Positions 5,388 to 24,758 of a stretch of DNA of 24,758 nucleotides are shown here, piece after piece. The position numbers and the translations under genes are program-made. The stretch spans positions 1 through 24,758 of the IMG/VR virus record IMGVR_UViG_3300042470_001114; one strand, 5' to 3'. The notes below the pieces were generated by a model. That model saw only the letters and a list, made by a program, of their open reading frames with translations, searched no databases and was not told where the DNA came from. Origin of the DNA: a virus. Every line of letters begins with the position of its first letter. Position 1 is the stretch's first letter.

Positions 5388-5419
5388 AAAAAAGGAGTAA
5401 TTGGTTACCCAATTACCCC
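5388..5419 (-). terminator. Intrinsic terminator after the AAA+ ATPase gene
   Basis: On the minus strand an 11-bp stem with one mismatch (GGGGTAATTGG / CCAATTACTCC), a GUAA tetraloop of GNRA type, and six U residues. It lies 20 nt past the ATPase stop codon and directly before the uvsW promoter. Confidence 0.85.
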
Positions 5420-6572: not shown

Positions 6573-6970
6573 CTAATTAATGATGCGAATTGTGGCTTAG
6601 ATTTTATGTATGCAATGGCACGATCAATATCATCTTCACTAACACCTTCCATACTGTATATGTATGTAGCTTCATCACGTGATATTGGATATAATTGTAG
6701 TTTTTTTACATCATTGTTAAAAAAGCAATTATCAGGAGGGGAATCATGAATACCGTCAACATCAATCCATTTATTACTATTAGGAATGGTTACTACAACA
6801 TGGCAGTATTCAATAACATCTTCTTCGTCAAAATCGTCATAATAAGTCCCACCCCAAGCAGCTAGTGGATAATTAGTCAAATCATGTAAAGCAATCGCAA
6901 ATGCATCGCACATACCACTTCTATATAACGATGCGTCTGACTTTTGTTCTAACAATTCAACGATTTTCAT
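6569..6970 (-). CDS. Hypothetical protein, possible papain-like fold
   Basis: 133-aa protein. The order GMCDAFAIAL (Cys21), YCHVVV (His57), WIDVDG (Asp70/Asp72) recalls the Cys-His-Asp arrangement of papain/transglutaminase-like folds, including small phage proteins with a GxCxxFAxAL helix. Catalytic activity is inference only. The ATG at 6970 was chosen over an upstream TTG at 6985. No Shine-Dalgarno is present; GATAAATA lies 5 nt upstream instead. The 3' end overlaps the -35 box of the next promoter. Confidence 0.7.
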   Translation of the reverse strand: MKIVELLEQKSDASLYRSGMCDAFAIALHDLTNYPLAAWGGTYYDDFDEEDVIEYCHVVVTIPNSNKWIDVDGIHDSPPDNCFFNNDVKKLQLYPISRDEATYIYSMEGVSEDDIDRAIAYIKSKPQFASLIS

Positions 6971-8624: not shown

Positions 8625-8657
8625 GCTACTCTCCTTTCTGTGTGTATGTGTCTATCT

Positions 8658-8680
8658 TGAGTGCACCCTATGTGCGCTCA
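8658..8680 (-). promoter_or_regulatory. 5'-terminal stem-loop in a late leader
   Basis: On the minus strand TGAG and GCAC pair with GTGC and CTCA around a 5-nt loop, with one internal mismatch. The predicted start site (about 8679) puts the hairpin at the very 5' end of the mRNA. Such 5' hairpins protect some phage and bacterial mRNAs from decay; that role here is inference. Confidence 0.5.
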
Positions 8681-8684
8681 AATG

Positions 8685-8692
8685 TATTTATA
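8685..8692 (-). promoter_or_regulatory. T4-type late promoter
   Basis: Exact TATAAATA on the minus strand, 61 nt before the ATG of the 92-aa late gene. Confidence 0.65.
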
Positions 8693-9305: not shown

Positions 9306-9329
9306 AAAAAAGGCACCGAAGTGCCTTTT
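9306..9329 (-). terminator. Intrinsic terminator with UUCG tetraloop
   Basis: Minus strand: GGCAC, UUCG, GUGCC, then a U run; AAAA before the stem can extend pairing with the Us. The C(UUCG)G loop is an especially stable tetraloop. It overlaps the stop codon of the frameshift ORF. Confidence 0.9.
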
Positions 9330-11624: not shown

Positions 11625-12009
11625 TTTCTTCATCCTTTGCTATACGTGCGTTTTTTAAATCAAACCAAGCTAATACTTCTTTTGATTCTAAATCTCTAAC
11701 TAAATTTTTAATATGTAAGGTTAATTTATGTTTTTGATAGTCATAAGCAGGTTGGTTGTTTATTGCTTCATCCCAATCACGTGTATTAAATGCACCACAA
11801 TAGTAAAGTTTTTCAAACGTTTGCTGTAAACATGTTTTCATTTGTGGAGTGCAATATACACCTGATGATATTTCCATAGCTAAACACAAAGCTTGTGCAT
11901 GTGTCATCACTAAACCATTCCAATAAACAATATACTCATCATATTTTGGAAGATATACTAAAACAGGTTTAGCATCAAGTATACTCCAACTATGTTCAGG
12001 TCTATTCAT
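11617..12009 (-). CDS. Hypothetical protein
   Basis: 130-aa protein from ATG 12009 (MNRPEHSWSILDAKPVLVYL). GGAAG lies 3 nt upstream and the start overlaps the nucleotidyltransferase stop by 8 nt. Central LVMTHAQALCLAMEISSGVY helix and a C-terminal charged helix. No family recognised. Coupling to the nucleotidyltransferase gene may mean a shared job (inference). Confidence 0.65.
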   Translation of the reverse strand: MNRPEHSWSILDAKPVLVYLPKYDEYIVYWNGLVMTHAQALCLAMEISSGVYCTPQMKTCLQQTFEKLYYCGAFNTRDWDEAINNQPAYDYQKHKLTLHIKNLVRDLESKEVLAWFDLKNARIAKDEENV

Positions 12010-12625
12010 ATTCTTCCATTGAAGTAAATTTCCAAGCACTGATATCATTCTGTACAATATTTTCAATCAACCCATCAACAGGGCGATACCCATAGGTACA
12101 ATATTTTACTAAACGTTTTGCAGCTTGTGGTTGTAGCGGATAATTCATTCGCAAAATTTTATGACGAATATCACTTGCAGTATGTTCACCCATAACCCAA
12201 TTTGTACCATCTGTTCCTATTTGACACACACTAATATCAAAACTATTAACTACATCCTGTAAACTATCATAAAAACGTTTAGTGATAATTTGTACAGTCC
12301 AATACCGTCTAATCTTTGATTTGGAAACATAAGCGTAAGTTAAAGCATTTTCTGTATGATATTTTTCTTGTACAGTAGCCTGAGCATGTAATCTTTGTTT
12401 TAACTCTTTTACTTGATTACTATCAACACAAAAAATATCAATATCAGCTTGATCTATGGGTTTATGTTGATACCATTGTAAACATGACCCACCCGCAATA
12501 AAAGGACCTTGTGGTGTGGGACATATTACCCTAACAGGTTCTTGATCATCTGCATGAACTAAAGGATAATCCTTCTTAGGTTCTTCAGGTTTACCAAATA
12601 AATCATCAAAAGAAAAGCGACTCAT
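12002..12625 (-). CDS. Pol-beta-superfamily nucleotidyltransferase-like protein
   Basis: 207-aa protein with the core of the Pol-beta nucleotidyltransferase fold: GGS at 45-47, then DIDIF with Asp61 and Asp63 as the metal-binding pair. VNSFDISVCQIG near 127-138 supplies the third Asp. After this a helical part follows (AAKRLVKYCTYGY). Proteins of this shape occur in many tailed phages; targets may be nucleotides, RNA or proteins and are not known here. ATGA overlap with the upstream 72-aa gene. Confidence 0.75.
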   Translation of the reverse strand: MSRFSFDDLFGKPEEPKKDYPLVHADDQEPVRVICPTPQGPFIAGGSCLQWYQHKPIDQADIDIFCVDSNQVKELKQRLHAQATVQEKYHTENALTYAYVSKSKIRRYWTVQIITKRFYDSLQDVVNSFDISVCQIGTDGTNWVMGEHTASDIRHKILRMNYPLQPQAAKRLVKYCTYGYRPVDGLIENIVQNDISAWKFTSMEEYE

Positions 12626-12840
12626 GCAATTTTTTTATCTTGGAGCAAAGTTTCAAAAGTGCCAAACAATTGTTCAAATTTTACAGCATAAATTGTTTCC
12701 AACCCTAGCAAATAGTTTGAAATTTGATCCTTAGTAAAGTTATCATTTTCAAGCACTTGCACGTTTAACAATTTAATTTCATCCGTAATACCCCAACAAC
12801 CTAAAATTTGTTGTTCTAAATCAAAACGATCTGCCATCAT
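12622..12840 (-). CDS. Conserved hypothetical protein
   Basis: 72-aa acidic helical protein (MADRFDLEQQILGCWGITDE ... LLGLETIYAVKFEQLFGTFE). It recalls a short protein family of marine T4-like phages, function unknown. AGGAG lies just before an ATGATG start and is provided by the end of the upstream paralogue-family gene. Confidence 0.7.
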   Translation of the reverse strand: MMADRFDLEQQILGCWGITDEIKLLNVQVLENDNFTKDQISNYLLGLETIYAVKFEQLFGTFETLLQDKKIA

Positions 12841-13111
12841 ATTCTCCTATACCAAAACGTTGTTGTATAACTTGTTTTACTGCAATAAGTGCTGCGTTCC
12901 AACTTGGTGTATCGTAGGGGTCACCATCAGTGCCAACTCCACTATAACCACGCAAATCATCGCATACATTGGAACATTCTGCAAGCACTAATTCAGTTAA
13001 TTTCATTAAATCTGCTAATGCAGGTTCACTATGTACACCATATTTTGGGCTAGCATATTCTGTACGTAATACATTTGCTTGTCTAGCTATTTCAATAATT
13101 TTACTGTTCAT
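12821..13111 (-). CDS. Paralogue-array protein E (divergent member)
   Basis: 96-aa member of the five-copy family in this region. It begins MNSKIIEIARQAN, has LTELVLAEC in the centre and ends near VIQQRFGIGEYDGRSF. It is the most divergent, with a longer middle and a tail after FGIGE. Its stop and start codons overlap neighbours. Unknown function; see the other four copies. Confidence 0.7.
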   Translation of the reverse strand: MNSKIIEIARQANVLRTEYASPKYGVHSEPALADLMKLTELVLAECSNVCDDLRGYSGVGTDGDPYDTPSWNAALIAVKQVIQQRFGIGEYDGRSF

Positions 13112-13353
13112 TAATTTACGCTCATGTTTCTACTACAATTTTTACCACAATTTTCTGTCCAATTAGTTGATCCTTGGCAATTAGTAAAATAACGATAATT
13201 TCCACCGTCAACAAATCTATATACAGTGCATCCATCATGAGTAAACAATTTATCCACTTTAAAGTCTACACCTGCTGCAGTAGTTGACTCAGGTTGTTTT
13301 GCACTACAAGAAATTAAAGTAAGCAGTGTGAAAAATATAAGAAGGTATCTCAT
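13111..13353 (-). CDS. Small lipoprotein
   Basis: 80-aa product with a lipoprotein signal: MRYLLIFFTLLTLISC with lipobox Leu-Ile-Ser-Cys, Cys16 as lipidation site. The mature part has VDKLFTHDGCTVYRFVDGG and four more cysteines, similar to DUF4884-type small lipoproteins (from memory). Destined for the periplasm or outer membrane. It could act in lysis (Rz1-like) or surface exclusion; both are inference, since Rz1 proteins are usually Pro-rich and lie beside Rz. It sits inside the paralogue array, coupled by ATGA to copy D. Confidence 0.75.
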   Translation of the reverse strand: MRYLLIFFTLLTLISCSAKQPESTTAAGVDFKVDKLFTHDGCTVYRFVDGGNYRYFTNCQGSTNWTENCGKNCSRNMSVN

Positions 13354-18948: not shown

Positions 18949-18964
18949 GTGGTATTTTTACCAC
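18949..18964 (-). terminator. Weak terminator-like hairpin
   Basis: GTGGTA, AAAA loop, TACCAC on the minus strand, covering the nucleotidyltransferase stop codon, followed by a broken U-rich stretch. Probably only partial termination. Confidence 0.4.
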
Positions 18965-19437
18965 TTTTCGGATTGATTGACCCGTTGCATTTCAGCCTCC
19001 ATAACACGCTTGCGCAATGAACTTGAGCTAAAGCTATGGTCACGCCCATTATAAATTAATTCTATCCCACGGTCAAGGCATATCTGTTTTCCTGTAAAAT
19101 CTTTATCTTTGTATTCAATACCTAGTATTCTCATATCAATAGGCAGAACAAGAAACAAATCTTCAAGGTCTTTTTCTGTATTGTAGATAACAATTTCATC
19201 AACAAAACGTGTAGCACTAAGTTGTATTTGTCGTTCTACGATAGACTGTACAGGTCGATTTTTTGTAGGTCTATCTAAACTAGCATCATTTTGTAGGGCA
19301 GCGATAAGATAGTCACAGTGTTGTTTGGCTTCAGATAACATAGCAATATGCCCTGCATGAAGCAAATCAAATTGGCTACAAGTAATACCAATTTTTAGAC
19401 CACTATTTTTCAGTTCTTTTATACGGTTAAATATCAT
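18958..19437 (-). CDS. Cytidylyltransferase-like nucleotidyltransferase
   Basis: 159-aa Rossmann-type nucleotidyltransferase. GITCSQFDLLHAGHIAML has the HxGH signature at 27-30; RPTKNRPVQSIVERQ near 56-70 and SSSSLRKRV at 137-145 equal the late ISTT/SSSxLR motif. Close to glycerol-3-phosphate or ADP-heptose type cytidylyl/adenylyltransferases; NMN adenylyltransferase is another reading. Likely activates a small phosphate compound with CTP or ATP; substrate unknown. It overlaps the oxygenase by 11 nt. Confidence 0.85.
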   Translation of the reverse strand: MIFNRIKELKNSGLKIGITCSQFDLLHAGHIAMLSEAKQHCDYLIAALQNDASLDRPTKNRPVQSIVERQIQLSATRFVDEIVIYNTEKDLEDLFLVLPIDMRILGIEYKDKDFTGKQICLDRGIELIYNGRDHSFSSSSLRKRVMEAEMQRVNQSEKW

Positions 19438-20062
19438 TTTTCAGCTTTATTAAAAAATTTAGTACGATTCTATATCCTGTTTTTGGATGCGATCCTGCGT
19501 GAAGTACGGATCCATCCATTAAGATTAATTGACCTTTTTTAGATTCAACCTTATGACTTATTTTGAATGGCTTTTCATCGTTTTCAAAAATATACGTAAA
19601 GCCATCTGAGTCGTTGACGTGATATATACCTACGACATACTTATCATCGGGTTTTATCACTTTTTTATCTTTAGTTAAACGATAATAATCGTAATGAGGA
19701 GGATTATAAAGTTTATCAGTCTTATAGAATGTTTGTAAATTAGCTTTAACTTTGACAATACTTTCTATTTTATTTTGGTCAATGTTAATATAATTTATAA
19801 ATTTTTTAATAATTGGATAATATGGAGATATTATCTGATCATCTTCCATAAAAAGATGAGTTAAATGATAATATTCAAAAGTGTTTTCGTCAAAATAGTA
19901 ATCTTTTCTGACTAGATCACCATTTTCATACGAAGTTTCTACCTCATGATATGTAGTTAAATTTAAACCATACCATGGAAAATTTATACGTGTAAATGTA
20001 TCGTATATTTCTTGTTCAAAACTATAAGGTATTGATTTTTCAAATATGTATATAAAAGACAT
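19427..20062 (-). CDS. 2OG-Fe(II) oxygenase
   Basis: 211-aa dioxygenase. PPHYDYYR holds the iron ligands His123-x-Asp125, DGSVLHAGSHPKTGYRIVLN holds His188 and the 2-oxoglutarate-binding Arg198. Tyr/Phe-rich N-terminal half. Similar phage enzymes are common in marine T4-like phages; substrate unknown. Its GGGGGAAG ribosome site is locked in the 12-bp hairpin just upstream, so translation from read-through transcripts should be poor. Confidence 0.87.
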   Translation of the reverse strand: MSFIYIFEKSIPYSFEQEIYDTFTRINFPWYGLNLTTYHEVETSYENGDLVRKDYYFDENTFEYYHLTHLFMEDDQIISPYYPIIKKFINYINIDQNKIESIVKVKANLQTFYKTDKLYNPPHYDYYRLTKDKKVIKPDDKYVVGIYHVNDSDGFTYIFENDEKPFKISHKVESKKGQLILMDGSVLHAGSHPKTGYRIVLNFLIKLKNDI

Positions 20063-20063
20063 T

Positions 20064-20100
20064 AAACTTCCCCCACCTGTTATTTAGATGGGGGAAGTTT
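20064..20100 (-). promoter_or_regulatory. RBS-sequestering hairpin of the 2OG oxygenase gene
   Basis: Minus-strand RNA: AAACTTCCCCCA pairs perfectly over 12 bp with TGGGGGAAGTTT, 13-nt loop, and the start codon begins 1 nt after the stem. The 3' arm contains the only ribosome site. No U run follows, so it is not a terminator. Confidence 0.75.
20081..20088 (-). promoter_or_regulatory. Late-promoter-like motif inside the hairpin loop
   Basis: TCTAAATA on the minus strand, one mismatch to TATAAATA, in the loop of the hairpin. A start site 6 nt downstream is 20075, the first base of the 3' arm. The late mRNA would lack the 5' arm. Confidence 0.5.
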
Positions 20101-20106
20101 GGAAAA

Positions 20107-20334
20107 TTAATAATCTGATTCCATCTTTTTAAGATCTTCTTCCCACATATTTTTAAAATTTTTATTTTTTAAAAATTTTTGGTATTGCTGAAAAGCGTAA
20201 CTACGCATATTGGTTAAATCACGTTCATCATAACGATAACCATAATCCTTACAAAAGTTTAGATAATTTTCTAACTGTTCAAAAATTGGTTCGTTAGTAC
20301 TGAAAAAGTTACGACCTTTACTTGCTTTACTCAT
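20107..20334 (-). CDS. Conserved hypothetical protein
   Basis: 75-aa helical, charged protein from ATG 20334 (MSKASKGRNFFSTNEPIFEQ): LENYLNFCKDYGYRYDERDL and MRSYAFQQYQKFLKNKNFKN. It resembles a short family of marine T4-like phages (recollection), function unknown. AAGGA lies 11 nt upstream. Last gene before the RBS hairpin. Confidence 0.7.
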   Translation of the reverse strand: MSKASKGRNFFSTNEPIFEQLENYLNFCKDYGYRYDERDLTNMRSYAFQQYQKFLKNKNFKNMWEEDLKKMESDY

Positions 20335-20945: not shown

Positions 20946-21287
20946 TTACCCTCCTTTATGATCCTTTACCAAATTTAAAATCAAATCCATTTTTTCTTTA
21001 ATTTCAGCAACAGCAGGATATTCTTTAGCTAATTTCTCAACTTCTCGCTCTTGCGCCATTTTATTTTTTGCCCATTCTAGTATTTCTTGCGTCTCGGTGT
21101 CAAGTTCTATGGTCGGATAATTCCAATTTAAGCATTTCCAATAACTACCATCATTAATTTCCAAACAATTAATGTTTGAATTCCAACGAACATGCCCTGC
21201 ACCTTGTGCGCCTGGGCTGATGTAAATATCAGCGGGATATGTTTGGTTTACTTTTATACCTTTTCCTGTGTTTATAGTTTTAATCAT
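20946..21287 (-). CDS. Conserved T4-like phage protein
   Basis: 113-aa protein in two parts. The first resembles tail-fibre-like repeats (YISPGAQGAGHVRWNSNINC, LEINDGSYWKCL). The second is a charged helix (EILEWAKNKMAQEREVEKLA) with AVAEIKEKMDLILNLVKDH. The same two-part plan occurs in marine T4-like phages as I recall, function unknown. ATGA overlap with the sliding clamp gene. Confidence 0.75.
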   Translation of the reverse strand: MIKTINTGKGIKVNQTYPADIYISPGAQGAGHVRWNSNINCLEINDGSYWKCLNWNYPTIELDTETQEILEWAKNKMAQEREVEKLAKEYPAVAEIKEKMDLILNLVKDHKGG

Positions 21288-22003
21288 AATTGTGCGGGTA
21301 ACATATATTCGTAATTTGCTAAACCACTATCCACTGTAATGCGCATAGCGGGTGAGTCACTGATGTAGATGGATTTGTCGCCTGGGAGGTCCATGATGCT
21401 GATAAATTGTCTAACAGGCCATGAGTATGATTTTGTAACCTTACCCGTAACATTTGCTTCAAACACAAAATTACCACTATGTGTTGTAGCTTTACCCATA
21501 TAAATTTTTAAATCATTGCCTTCTTGTTTTAAAACAAAGGTGTTTTCATCACTATTGGCTTGCATTTGTCGTTTCAATCGTTGGATATTTGCAAGCTTTG
21601 GTTCAAAGTGTATGTTCCATATTGCACCTGCGAACTTAACAGCTTTAACACGTTCTTTAACAAGTAACTCAGACATTAATCTATAATCATTAACAAAATC
21701 ACCATTAGCAGTTTCAAAATGTATTGCAGTTGGTGCTCCTTCATTAGTTCGTGTCATTGTTATTGATGCGTTTTTATCATAATCCTCAAACTTTAAAATA
21801 GTCTTGAGTTTGGTTAAATTAGGCATACCAAACATACCAATAAAATCATCCTGTGCTGTATGGAATACTCCTTGCACAATAACAGTATGATCATCTGCTA
21901 CTGCGTTAATAATAGTTGACTTGTCTGTACCTGTTACTTTAATAAGATCAATAAATCCTAATGAACAAGTATGTTGAATCAAGTCTAATAAATAATCTCT
22001 CAT
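21284..22003 (-). CDS. 45: DNA polymerase sliding clamp (gp45)
   Basis: 239-aa clamp, close to 228 aa of T4 gp45. The fold repeats seen include DYLLDLIQHTCSLGFIDLIK, VQGVFHTAQDDFIGMFGMPN, LTKLKTILKFEDYD and the C-terminal MRITVDSGLANYEYMLPAQL. The trimer tethers the polymerase and, in T4, also activates late promoters with gp33 and gp55, which fits the late motifs of this window. AAAGGA lies 7 nt upstream of the ATG. Own TATAAT promoter after the polymerase gene. Confidence 0.92.
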   Translation of the reverse strand: MRDYLLDLIQHTCSLGFIDLIKVTGTDKSTIINAVADDHTVIVQGVFHTAQDDFIGMFGMPNLTKLKTILKFEDYDKNASITMTRTNEGAPTAIHFETANGDFVNDYRLMSELLVKERVKAVKFAGAIWNIHFEPKLANIQRLKRQMQANSDENTFVLKQEGNDLKIYMGKATTHSGNFVFEANVTGKVTKSYSWPVRQFISIMDLPGDKSIYISDSPAMRITVDSGLANYEYMLPAQL

Positions 22004-22020
22004 GTTTTATCCTTTGTATG

Positions 22021-22048
22021 ATTATAAGACTCTATTGGTAATAATCAA
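22021..22048 (-). promoter_or_regulatory. Sigma70-like promoter of the clamp operon
   Basis: TTGATT (22048-22043), 16 nt, TATAAT (22026-22021), minus strand, in the 58-nt gap between polymerase and clamp. Confidence 0.65.
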
Positions 22049-22061
22049 GTAATTTAGATGT

Positions 22062-24758
22062 TTACTCAAACGTAAACAGCGAATCAAATGTATTATAAAT
22101 GTTAGTGGTTCGTTCTAAGTCCCAATCAAGCCCACCTATTAAGTTATCAATCTTTTTATCTACCAACGTATATTCCATTTCTTTATCATTAAATGGTAAT
22201 TCTGTAAACCATTTTGGCAACCGTAACTCATCTGTTGGGTACGCAATACTTGTAAAATTAAGAACATTGTTCTGTAACTTACACACAATAACCTTAGCAC
22301 CATTAGTAATCTTAGTACTGTAGTTATCATGATTTAACTCACGTAAAAAATTCCAATTAAGGCTTGCACGAACGTGGCCTGGCATGTTGACTTTGCCATC
22401 CTTACTTTTCTTTAATTTTTGTTCATATAGTGTTAGCTTGTTAACTGCTTTAGGACTACCCTTGTTCCAACTAGGCATATCACGCAAACGTTTTTTAAAT
22501 TCAATGATTTGCTGAATTGTATCTTCTTTGGTCGCACCTGCAAGTACACTTTCTAATACACTAAACAAAAATTCTTGAACAAACTTTGGTGTATCCGCAC
22601 GTTTCAAATCTAAGCCCATGGCTTTGATTTTACCTGTAGCACCATTCTTATCTAAACGCTTACCCTCTTTGTCATAGATATTAACTGCATAACGTTTTTT
22701 CGTAATGAATAATCCACGATCAGCTACTAATTCACGACCTGCTACAATAATATTTCCATTCTTTGGTGGACAATGAAAAGCACGATGCATGAAATCAGGA
22801 AATGTTGAATTAACCGTATTACCTAGATCATCGTATATCTCAATCGCATATTCTTTAGTCCAATTCTTTCTTAAATTTTCGTCTTTTGACCAAATAGGCC
22901 ATCCACTAAAATAACAAGAATCAGTATCGCCATAAACAATAGCTTCACCTGTGTGATCATATTCACCTGCAATTAATTCATTTAAGGTTGCACTCATGTG
23001 CTTGACAATTTGCCTACCTGTTAGTGTCGTACTTTGTCCAATACGCTTATCATAAAATCGACAATGTTGATTTAACAATGCACCATATGCAGAATTAAGC
23101 AAAATCTTACGTACAAGTTGTCGCTTATCAAAAAACTCTGCTTCTTCAGGAGTCTTGGCTTCTTTAAGTTGCTTTTGAATTTGTTTACGTTCGCTATACC
23201 ATCTCGTCAACAACCCAGGTATCACCCCCTCATTCTCATAGGTAAAAATTGTACCATTAGCACTTAAGATCCATGGTTTGCCACTATCGAAAATAAGTTT
23301 ATGCACCTCAGCAGCACTGAACTCTTGTGCTTTTCCACGTTCCCATTCTATGGTAATCATGGTATCACGCTCTTGGTTCATTACTGCGGTATATTCTAGT
23401 GTGCCAAATAATCCTTCCCATAAGATAGGACCATCTTCTCCTTCAACTTCTTCATCCTCCGCAACCTTACGATTCTTTTTCTTTTCACGTGCTAATTTTT
23501 GACTTTTGTCATATAAATATTGGTCGGTTAATGTTTGCTTAAGTTGTCCAACAATAGTTTCAGGTGCCATGTTTAATGCACGAATCGTTGATGGATATAG
23601 AGAATTCAAATCAACTGCAGCAATCCATTCATGAATACCTTTTTTAGGGTAAGCGACATATGCACCCGCAGCTTTGGTTTCATCTTCTTCAGTACGATAT
23701 GGTTTATCAGGAATAATAAGCCCACGTGAATGTGCCTCATTAATAACAGCTTGTTCAATCATAGCTACACTACCCATTACGGTAGGCAACAACACTGTAT
23801 TTTGATGTGCAATACTGTTTGCTAAATCTAAGAATTTAAGCTTAGCATGAATCTTATATAACAACATTGTATCTTGTCTGTTATATTCAAGAAATGTTTT
23901 CCAATCTTTGTTATAAAGTTGGTCTAGTGTGCCCTCATATTGGGTTTTCTTTTCTCCAACTTCCATTTCCCCAATATAATCTAATTTATAACTATGACGT
24001 TGTTCGTAGTTATACTTCTTGTATAATTCAAGATAGTCCATGTGTACTCGACCAACCAAGTCATAAGTGACTTGTTTTTGGTCAAACTGCACAAATTCAC
24101 GTTGGCGTGGATATTGATTAAACAGACAAAATCTGCGAGTATCATCCTTAGACATAACTTGGGTAACACGATTAACCATGTATGGAATATCGTATCCTCC
24201 ACTATTCCAACCTGTTAGTACGTCTGCATCTTCAATCAGGTCAAAGAACAAGTTAAACATTTCAATTTCATTTTTACAAACTATGGTATTTTCAAAATGC
24301 TTAACAGTTTCTTTAACTTGTTCTTCAGTATAACCTGTAGGTGGAATACATAATGTAATTAATGCGTCCATCCAATCTAAGTATAAAGAGATTGAGTTTA
24401 CTGCGTTGAATGGGTCATCAGTTGGGGCAAATCCTTTATCAGGATCAAAGTTTACCTCAATATCAAAAAAGCATACATGCAAGTTTGGTGGTGGCATATC
24501 CAAATAATTATCAGATAAGCACCTAAAAACAGGATTAATATCACTTTCAAATATCTGTGATTTAGTCCGATGTATGCGCAATTCTTTTATGAATTCATTT
24601 TTGTTTGACGCTGTAATTTTAGACAAGGAATCTCCGTATACACTACGGTATTTTCCTTTTGGGTCAGTATAGTAAAAAAGGTATTTTGCTTTGTATTCTT
24701 GATAAATGCGTTTACCTTTTTTATCACGTTCGACAATGTGAATTTTATCAGATTCACG
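22062..24758 (-). CDS. 43: Family B DNA polymerase (gp43), 5' end outside window
   Basis: 898 residues visible; the frame is open to the window edge, so the N-terminus is missing. The region before the TTG at 24626 reads HIVERDKKGKRIYQEY and TDPKGKYRSVYGDS, typical of marine gp43, so no start lies there. Exonuclease motifs: FFDIEV (Asp99/Glu101 of the visible part), TGWNSGGYDIPYMVNRV, YNRQDTMLLYKI. Polymerase motifs: A VDLNSLYPS, B KILLNSAYGALLNQ, C YGDTDSCYF, plus KKRYAVN. The C-terminus FDSLFTFE is a likely clamp-binding peptide. Replicates the phage genome with the clamp encoded next to it. Confidence 0.96.
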   Translation of the reverse strand, partial: RESDKIHIVERDKKGKRIYQEYKAKYLFYYTDPKGKYRSVYGDSLSKITASNKNEFIKELRIHRTKSQIFESDINPVFRCLSDNYLDMPPPNLHVCFFDIEVNFDPDKGFAPTDDPFNAVNSISLYLDWMDALITLCIPPTGYTEEQVKETVKHFENTIVCKNEIEMFNLFFDLIEDADVLTGWNSGGYDIPYMVNRVTQVMSKDDTRRFCLFNQYPRQREFVQFDQKQVTYDLVGRVHMDYLELYKKYNYEQRHSYKLDYIGEMEVGEKKTQYEGTLDQLYNKDWKTFLEYNRQDTMLLYKIHAKLKFLDLANSIAHQNTVLLPTVMGSVAMIEQAVINEAHSRGLIIPDKPYRTEEDETKAAGAYVAYPKKGIHEWIAAVDLNSLYPSTIRALNMAPETIVGQLKQTLTDQYLYDKSQKLAREKKKNRKVAEDEEVEGEDGPILWEGLFGTLEYTAVMNQERDTMITIEWERGKAQEFSAAEVHKLIFDSGKPWILSANGTIFTYENEGVIPGLLTRWYSERKQIQKQLKEAKTPEEAEFFDKRQLVRKILLNSAYGALLNQHCRFYDKRIGQSTTLTGRQIVKHMSATLNELIAGEYDHTGEAIVYGDTDSCYFSGWPIWSKDENLRKNWTKEYAIEIYDDLGNTVNSTFPDFMHRAFHCPPKNGNIIVAGRELVADRGLFITKKRYAVNIYDKEGKRLDKNGATGKIKAMGLDLKRADTPKFVQEFLFSVLESVLAGATKEDTIQQIIEFKKRLRDMPSWNKGSPKAVNKLTLYEQKLKKSKDGKVNMPGHVRASLNWNFLRELNHDNYSTKITNGAKVIVCKLQNNVLNFTSIAYPTDELRLPKWFTELPFNDKEMEYTLVDKKIDNLIGGLDWDLERTTNIYNTFDSLFTFE

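Follow-up and report, generated by a model that had tools for sequence, protein, structure and literature searches.

Genes and features around the hairpin

The window, by which we mean the whole stretch of DNA that was analysed, is a viral contig 24,758 bases long. Its T4-family DNA polymerase has its nearest counterparts in the jumbo phages Phosso, Atu_ph07 and CBB (40-48% identity). All genes from 24626 to 15648, from the polymerase to a second oxygenase, lie on one strand. Within this run a strong hairpin stands between a conserved small ORF, g20107, and oxyA, the first gene behind a candidate translation switch. The features discussed below are as follows.

20946-24626 (-): co-directional upstream genes, from which read-through early or middle RNA presumably comes (DNA polymerase, 22062-24626; ORF at the clamp position, 21284-22003; ORF, 20946-21287)
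20107-20334 (-): g20107, conserved small ORF, with its stop 6 nt short of the hairpin
20064-20100 (-): RNA hairpin predicted to hide the ribosome site, 37 nt, kept in the related loci L007, L010, L029 and L034 (5' arm, 20086-20100; loop, 20079-20085, AAATAAC, 7 nt; 3' arm, 20064-20078)
20081-20088 (-): late-promoter-like octamer TCTAAATA, of which TCT belongs to the 5' arm and AAATA to the loop; 20075 is the predicted +1
20070-20074 (-): ribosome site GGGGG in the 3' arm, 7 nt before the ATG; AGGGG in relatives
20063-20075 (-): predicted 13-nt late leader UGGGGGAAGUUUA; 12-13 nt in relatives, and of the same length in T4 I-TevII
19427-20062 (-): oxyA, divergent 2OG-Fe(II) oxygenase of 211 aa, first gene behind the candidate switch
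18958-19437 (-): cytidylyltransferase-like nucleotidyltransferase, overlapping the last bases of oxyA with its start

On the minus strand the sequence from the hairpin through the start codon reads AAACTTCCCCCATCTAAATAACAGGTGGGGGAAGTTT-A-ATG, with one base between the hairpin and the ATG (20062-20060). The 12-bp core, with arms AAACTTCCCCCA and TGGGGGAAGTTT, has no mismatch, and three extra pairs (U.G, C-G and U-A) make up a 15-bp stem. Sequence and fold thus agree with the perfect 12-bp stem holding the oxygenase ribosome site that a preliminary description of this DNA had reported, and the stem extends beyond it. In a 70-nt fold the hairpin reaches -24.3 kcal/mol (z = -4.9; 0 of 200 shuffles equalled it). 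No other hairpin in the window comes near it in strength, and among 446 gene starts in five contigs it ranks first in ribosome-site hiding; an Rfam search gave no match. The GGGGG ribosome site is non-standard, forming one G.U with the anti-SD, and its predicted duplex is good (-8.4 kcal/mol). For the window, the predicted mean unpaired probability of the SD stretch is 0.0 in the read-through RNA versus 0.41 in the late RNA; across the relatives, the window included, it is 0.36-0.77 in an RNA beginning at the predicted +1, and 0.0-0.25 in the long RNA. In the model part of the pairing of the window SD persists in the late RNA, which we count against a switch. On long transcripts, then, a helix is predicted to hide the ribosome site in the manner of the T4-type RBS hairpins of e, soc, 49, I-TevI and I-TevII.

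The HxD and H...R motifs of oxyA are conserved with its counterpart in L007 (L007:6492-7130). The match to Pfam 2OG-FeII_Oxy is weak (E 0.03), with none above the Pfam cut-off, a sequence search of the PDB found no relative, and a model of low confidence resembles PHD2-type prolyl hydroxylases (E 1e-4, TM 0.47). The HxD...H...R motif, together with the jelly-roll fold of that low-confidence model, points to a 2OG-Fe(II) oxygenase. PHROG 274 labels the family 'DNA endonuclease V'. In view of the oxygenase motifs of the sequence and the oxygenase-type fold of the model, we discarded this label, which was probably carried over in annotation. Separately, the polymerase gene of L030 and L031 (at 11875-13308) is interrupted near residues 563-568 by about 1.4 kb that has the look of an intron or another insertion.

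Conservation of the hairpin and variation in the gene behind it

A search with the DNA polymerase yielded 30 loci with a common gene order. In five distinct loci, the window, L007, L010, L029 and L034, g20107 is followed by the hairpin; L005 and L008 are identical to the window at the element, and L009 was grouped with L010. Common to all five are TCTAAATAA, four C-G pairs and, 6-7 nt ahead of an ATG, a GGGG ribosome site; TCTAAATAA is invariant whereas the remainder of the stem and the spacer diverge. In an alignment of four sequences, from which L010 was left out, its box being shifted by one base on each side, 4 of the 15 stem pairs have changed on both sides. In the same alignment 90% of cells are paired, compared with 80% in shuffled and 37-58% in slid versions, and stem covariation exceeds that of all 500 shuffles. 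The folds of single loci have z-scores from -2.2 (L010) to -6.7. The comparison of relatives that had been proposed as a check, for compensatory stem changes and retention of the loop motif, therefore came out in favour of both, and the two-sided changes in these four sequences argue that the structure has been kept by selection. The element is carried by five distinct sequences only, which we also count against the switch, and it is absent from more distant relatives (polymerase 60-70%) and from the wider homologues of the nucleotidyltransferase and of g20107. Among the matches listed, a scan of viral contigs with the general pattern CTTCCCCC...GGGGGAAG was not informative; a tighter clade pattern found three contigs, all of them known already, and nothing further. 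In all five loci the GC-rich core begins at least 11 bases past the g20107 stop, probably too far for a terminating ribosome to reach, and translation of g20107 therefore need not open the hairpin.

The gene behind the hairpin is not constant. The window and L007 have the oxygenase between the hairpin and the nucleotidyltransferase, with its end overlapping the nucleotidyltransferase start. L010, L029 and L034 have no oxygenase, and there the hairpin is followed directly by the nucleotidyltransferase ATG. The oxygenases of the window and L007 are only 54% identical, whereas their neighbours are mostly 93-100% identical (96-99% for g20107, the nucleotidyltransferase and the polymerase), which suggests that the oxygenase gene has been exchanged. 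Late synthesis of the oxygenase had been taken to suggest a late substrate, such as a virion protein or packaged DNA. Since three of the five loci keep the same hairpin without an oxygenase, this does not follow: the proposed switch gives no particular hint of the oxygenase substrate, and on the comparison of these loci it belongs to the position rather than to the oxygenase.

The box in the hairpin and the putative late-promoter motif of the clade

As described previously, TCTAAATA is one mismatch from the T4 late octamer TATAAATA; its placement in the loop holds only in part, with TCT in the 5' arm and AAATA alone in the loop. By T4 spacing, the predicted start does fall on 20075, 6 nt past the motif, where the 3' arm of the 12-bp core begins. 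An octamer of this kind is not significant by itself: 72 sites with at most one mismatch occur in the window versus 96 expected. Its significance comes instead from its being conserved and fixed in position in the relatives. Three properties of the box count against the switch. The predicted +1 base is U. The box carries a C at -12, which is rare in T4 late boxes. In addition, the segment directly after the box is GC-rich in the window, and T4 late promoters are AT-rich there (PMC2988020). By sequence and position, the site has a candidate late promoter placed such that its RNA would be without the 5' arm.

Across the window and four related contigs, no hexamer in the 60 nt preceding ATG codons is more sense-biased than TAAATA (101 sense versus 33 antisense), and ATAAATA occurs upstream of genes 58 times in sense and 7 times in antisense. 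The distance from TAAATA to the ATG has sharp peaks at 5 nt (25) and 18 nt (17), compared with a typical 2-8, and CTAAATA alone, which is the late box of phage Aeh1 (PMC1524935), has a 5-nt peak of 7 with at most 2 at neighbouring distances. The motif precedes, among others, the genes for the tail tube, the head-tail adaptor and virion structural proteins. In T4 the late box occupies -13 to -6 (PMC1524935), so that a spacing of 18 nt sets +1 at 13 nt upstream, just before the ribosome site, and a spacing of 5 nt sets it on the A of the ATG. Judged by its position, the box is the putative late-promoter motif of the clade, and a NATAAATA-like late box before virion genes points to late transcription of the T4 type (gp55). 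A gp55 family protein is encoded in the wider relatives G007 and G008; it was not found in the closest contigs, all of which are fragments.

The 5-nt peak predicts many leaderless late mRNAs. When any base is allowed before TAAATA, the box stands exactly 5 nt before an ATG 41 times versus about 10 for other distances (L154-L168, L171 and L172; in the window at 6970). With A or C before TAAATA, this spacing occurs 8 times in wider relatives, and it is hardly seen in 115 kb of T4 (3), where the peak is weak or absent. Another arrangement, with a long leader, lies at 8625-8692 of the window: ATAAATA 60 nt before the ATG, with an inverted repeat that reads TTGAGCGCACATAGGGTGCACTCAA in the window, is kept in G002 (L165, upstream of 16834).

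We also screened the close set for a box combined with an RBS hairpin, with T4 e and I-TevII as controls, both of which were recovered. The combination was found at 10 of 57 TAAATA sites, and at 0-5 of 36-68 sites for other arrangements of the same letters. Several of these raw counts are orthologues of the hairpin, and loci were therefore also counted once each: where the box lies at 17-18 nt, 5 of 8 distinct loci have an RBS hairpin, compared with 9% (at -5 kcal/mol or better) of starts without a motif at these distances. An HNH endonuclease gene at L154:10396 (-) has the box 18 nt before its ATG in a strong RBS hairpin, and a second at L166:11607 (+) has the same spacing with a weaker one. 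A 55-aa ORF in L158:3461 (-) and L163:2753 (-) has the RBS hairpin CCTCCTGT...ACAGGAGG, with ATAAATA in the loop, 17 nt before the ATG. At least one HNH endonuclease gene in the clade, in G001, has the layout, as do T4 homing endonucleases, which use the RBS-hairpin design (PMC2988022).

A proposed late-only switch, its alternatives and its counterparts

Based on these observations, we believe that the oxyA hairpin is probably a translation switch of the T4 type that restricts expression to late infection. Early in infection, read-through RNA from the co-directional DNA-polymerase operon would cross the hairpin site, and this long RNA would fold the 15-bp hairpin, hiding the ribosome site and leaving the downstream gene untranslated. 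No other terminator-like site was found on the minus strand from 22000 to the hairpin. Late in infection, a gp55-type polymerase would use the TCTAAATA box to start inside the hairpin, near 20075. The resulting RNA, with a leader of 12-13 nt and no 5' arm, would be translated. In the window the switch would drive oxyA and then the overlapping nucleotidyltransferase; in L010, L029 and L034 it would drive the nucleotidyltransferase directly.

A different reading of the site is that it is an intrinsic terminator ending the polymerase operon, which overlaps the start of the next gene by chance and whose loop is incidental or only a promoter. The GC-rich stem does lie right behind a stop codon, a terminator scan lists the site, and L029 has both an A-tract and a U-tract (AAAAACCCC...GGGGTTTTTT). 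However, the U-tract is not conserved, being AAGUUUAA in the window and AUUAUUAU in L010, and the typical terminators of the window (5394-5419 and 9308-9329) have a short loop and six U directly after the stem. Furthermore, a terminator leaves unexplained the invariant TCTAAATAA, its spacing of 17-18 nt to the ATG, and the GGGG kept 6-7 nt before the ATG. We consider termination an unlikely account of the element as a whole, but some of the early RNA could also end here, L029 being the most plausible case.

It is slightly less probable still that the box is a plain late promoter and that the inverted repeat acts at the level of DNA, RNA processing or RNA stability, with no translational silencing. 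The motif alone is a good late promoter candidate, and T4 5' ends can arise by processing (PMC2988020), yet in all the relatives the ribosome site falls within the 3' arm, and the excess of RBS hairpins at starts with the box at 17-18 nt is left without a reason. That a chance hairpin has met a chance octamer is very improbable: one-mismatch octamers are indeed common in this AT-rich window, but coincidence is refuted by the two-sided stem changes and the invariant box in four diverged relatives.

The proposed switch would extend a classical control device of T4, here with a very stable hairpin, to uncultured phages with a polymerase nearest to those of jumbo phages, and the support for it is comparative, going beyond resemblance alone. 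It also indicates that such a switch can outlast the replacement of the gene behind it. More tentatively, and with somewhat more doubt than belief, we suggest that hairpin, promoter and ribosome site form a late-only slot that stays in place as the genes behind it are swapped, an incoming gene becoming late at once, and that leaderless late mRNAs are a second late class of the clade. The proposed switch also yields a simple sequence rule, in which a late box 17-18 nt before the ATG within an RBS hairpin marks a switch and a box 5 nt before the ATG marks a leaderless mRNA; this rule can be used to predict late genes in uncultured phages.

Among jumbo phages, the published passage on CBB and GAP32, whose polymerases are 40-43% identical to that of the window, gives a putative ATAAATA late box before structural genes, as in the present clade, but describes no RBS hairpin or leaderless class with their late promoters (PMC5259590). 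Aeh1, compared by its published description, belongs to another phage lineage; it shares the C at -12 of the late box (PMC1524935), and its mobE the RBS hairpin of a homing endonuclease (PMC2988022). The preliminary description had likened the element to T4 genes e, soc and 49. A T4-type design is upheld by the stem and motif of the relatives, the late motif of the clade and the geometry of I-TevII; the choice of counterparts needs amending, since I-TevII is the closest and the promoters of 49 and soc are placed differently. In gene e, which encodes the T4 lysozyme, a late box likewise lies inside the structure and the ribosome site is hidden in the long RNA only (PMC3014915). Expression from the long RNA is about 100-fold lower (PMC3014915), a precedent for the switch proposed here. 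Gene e differs in having two late boxes, a box 13 nt before the ATG, a shorter late leader and a structure of -12.3 kcal/mol, and in being a lysis gene. I-TevII, the endonuclease of the T4 nrdD intron, has a different gene downstream, its box is TATAAATA and not TCTAAATA, and its hairpin is smaller (8 bp and about -10 kcal/mol, compared with 15 bp and -23.5 kcal/mol in the window). Nevertheless, it has the same layout: a late box in the hairpin loop ending 18 nt before the ATG, a predicted late leader of 13 nt, and the ribosome site in the 3' arm.
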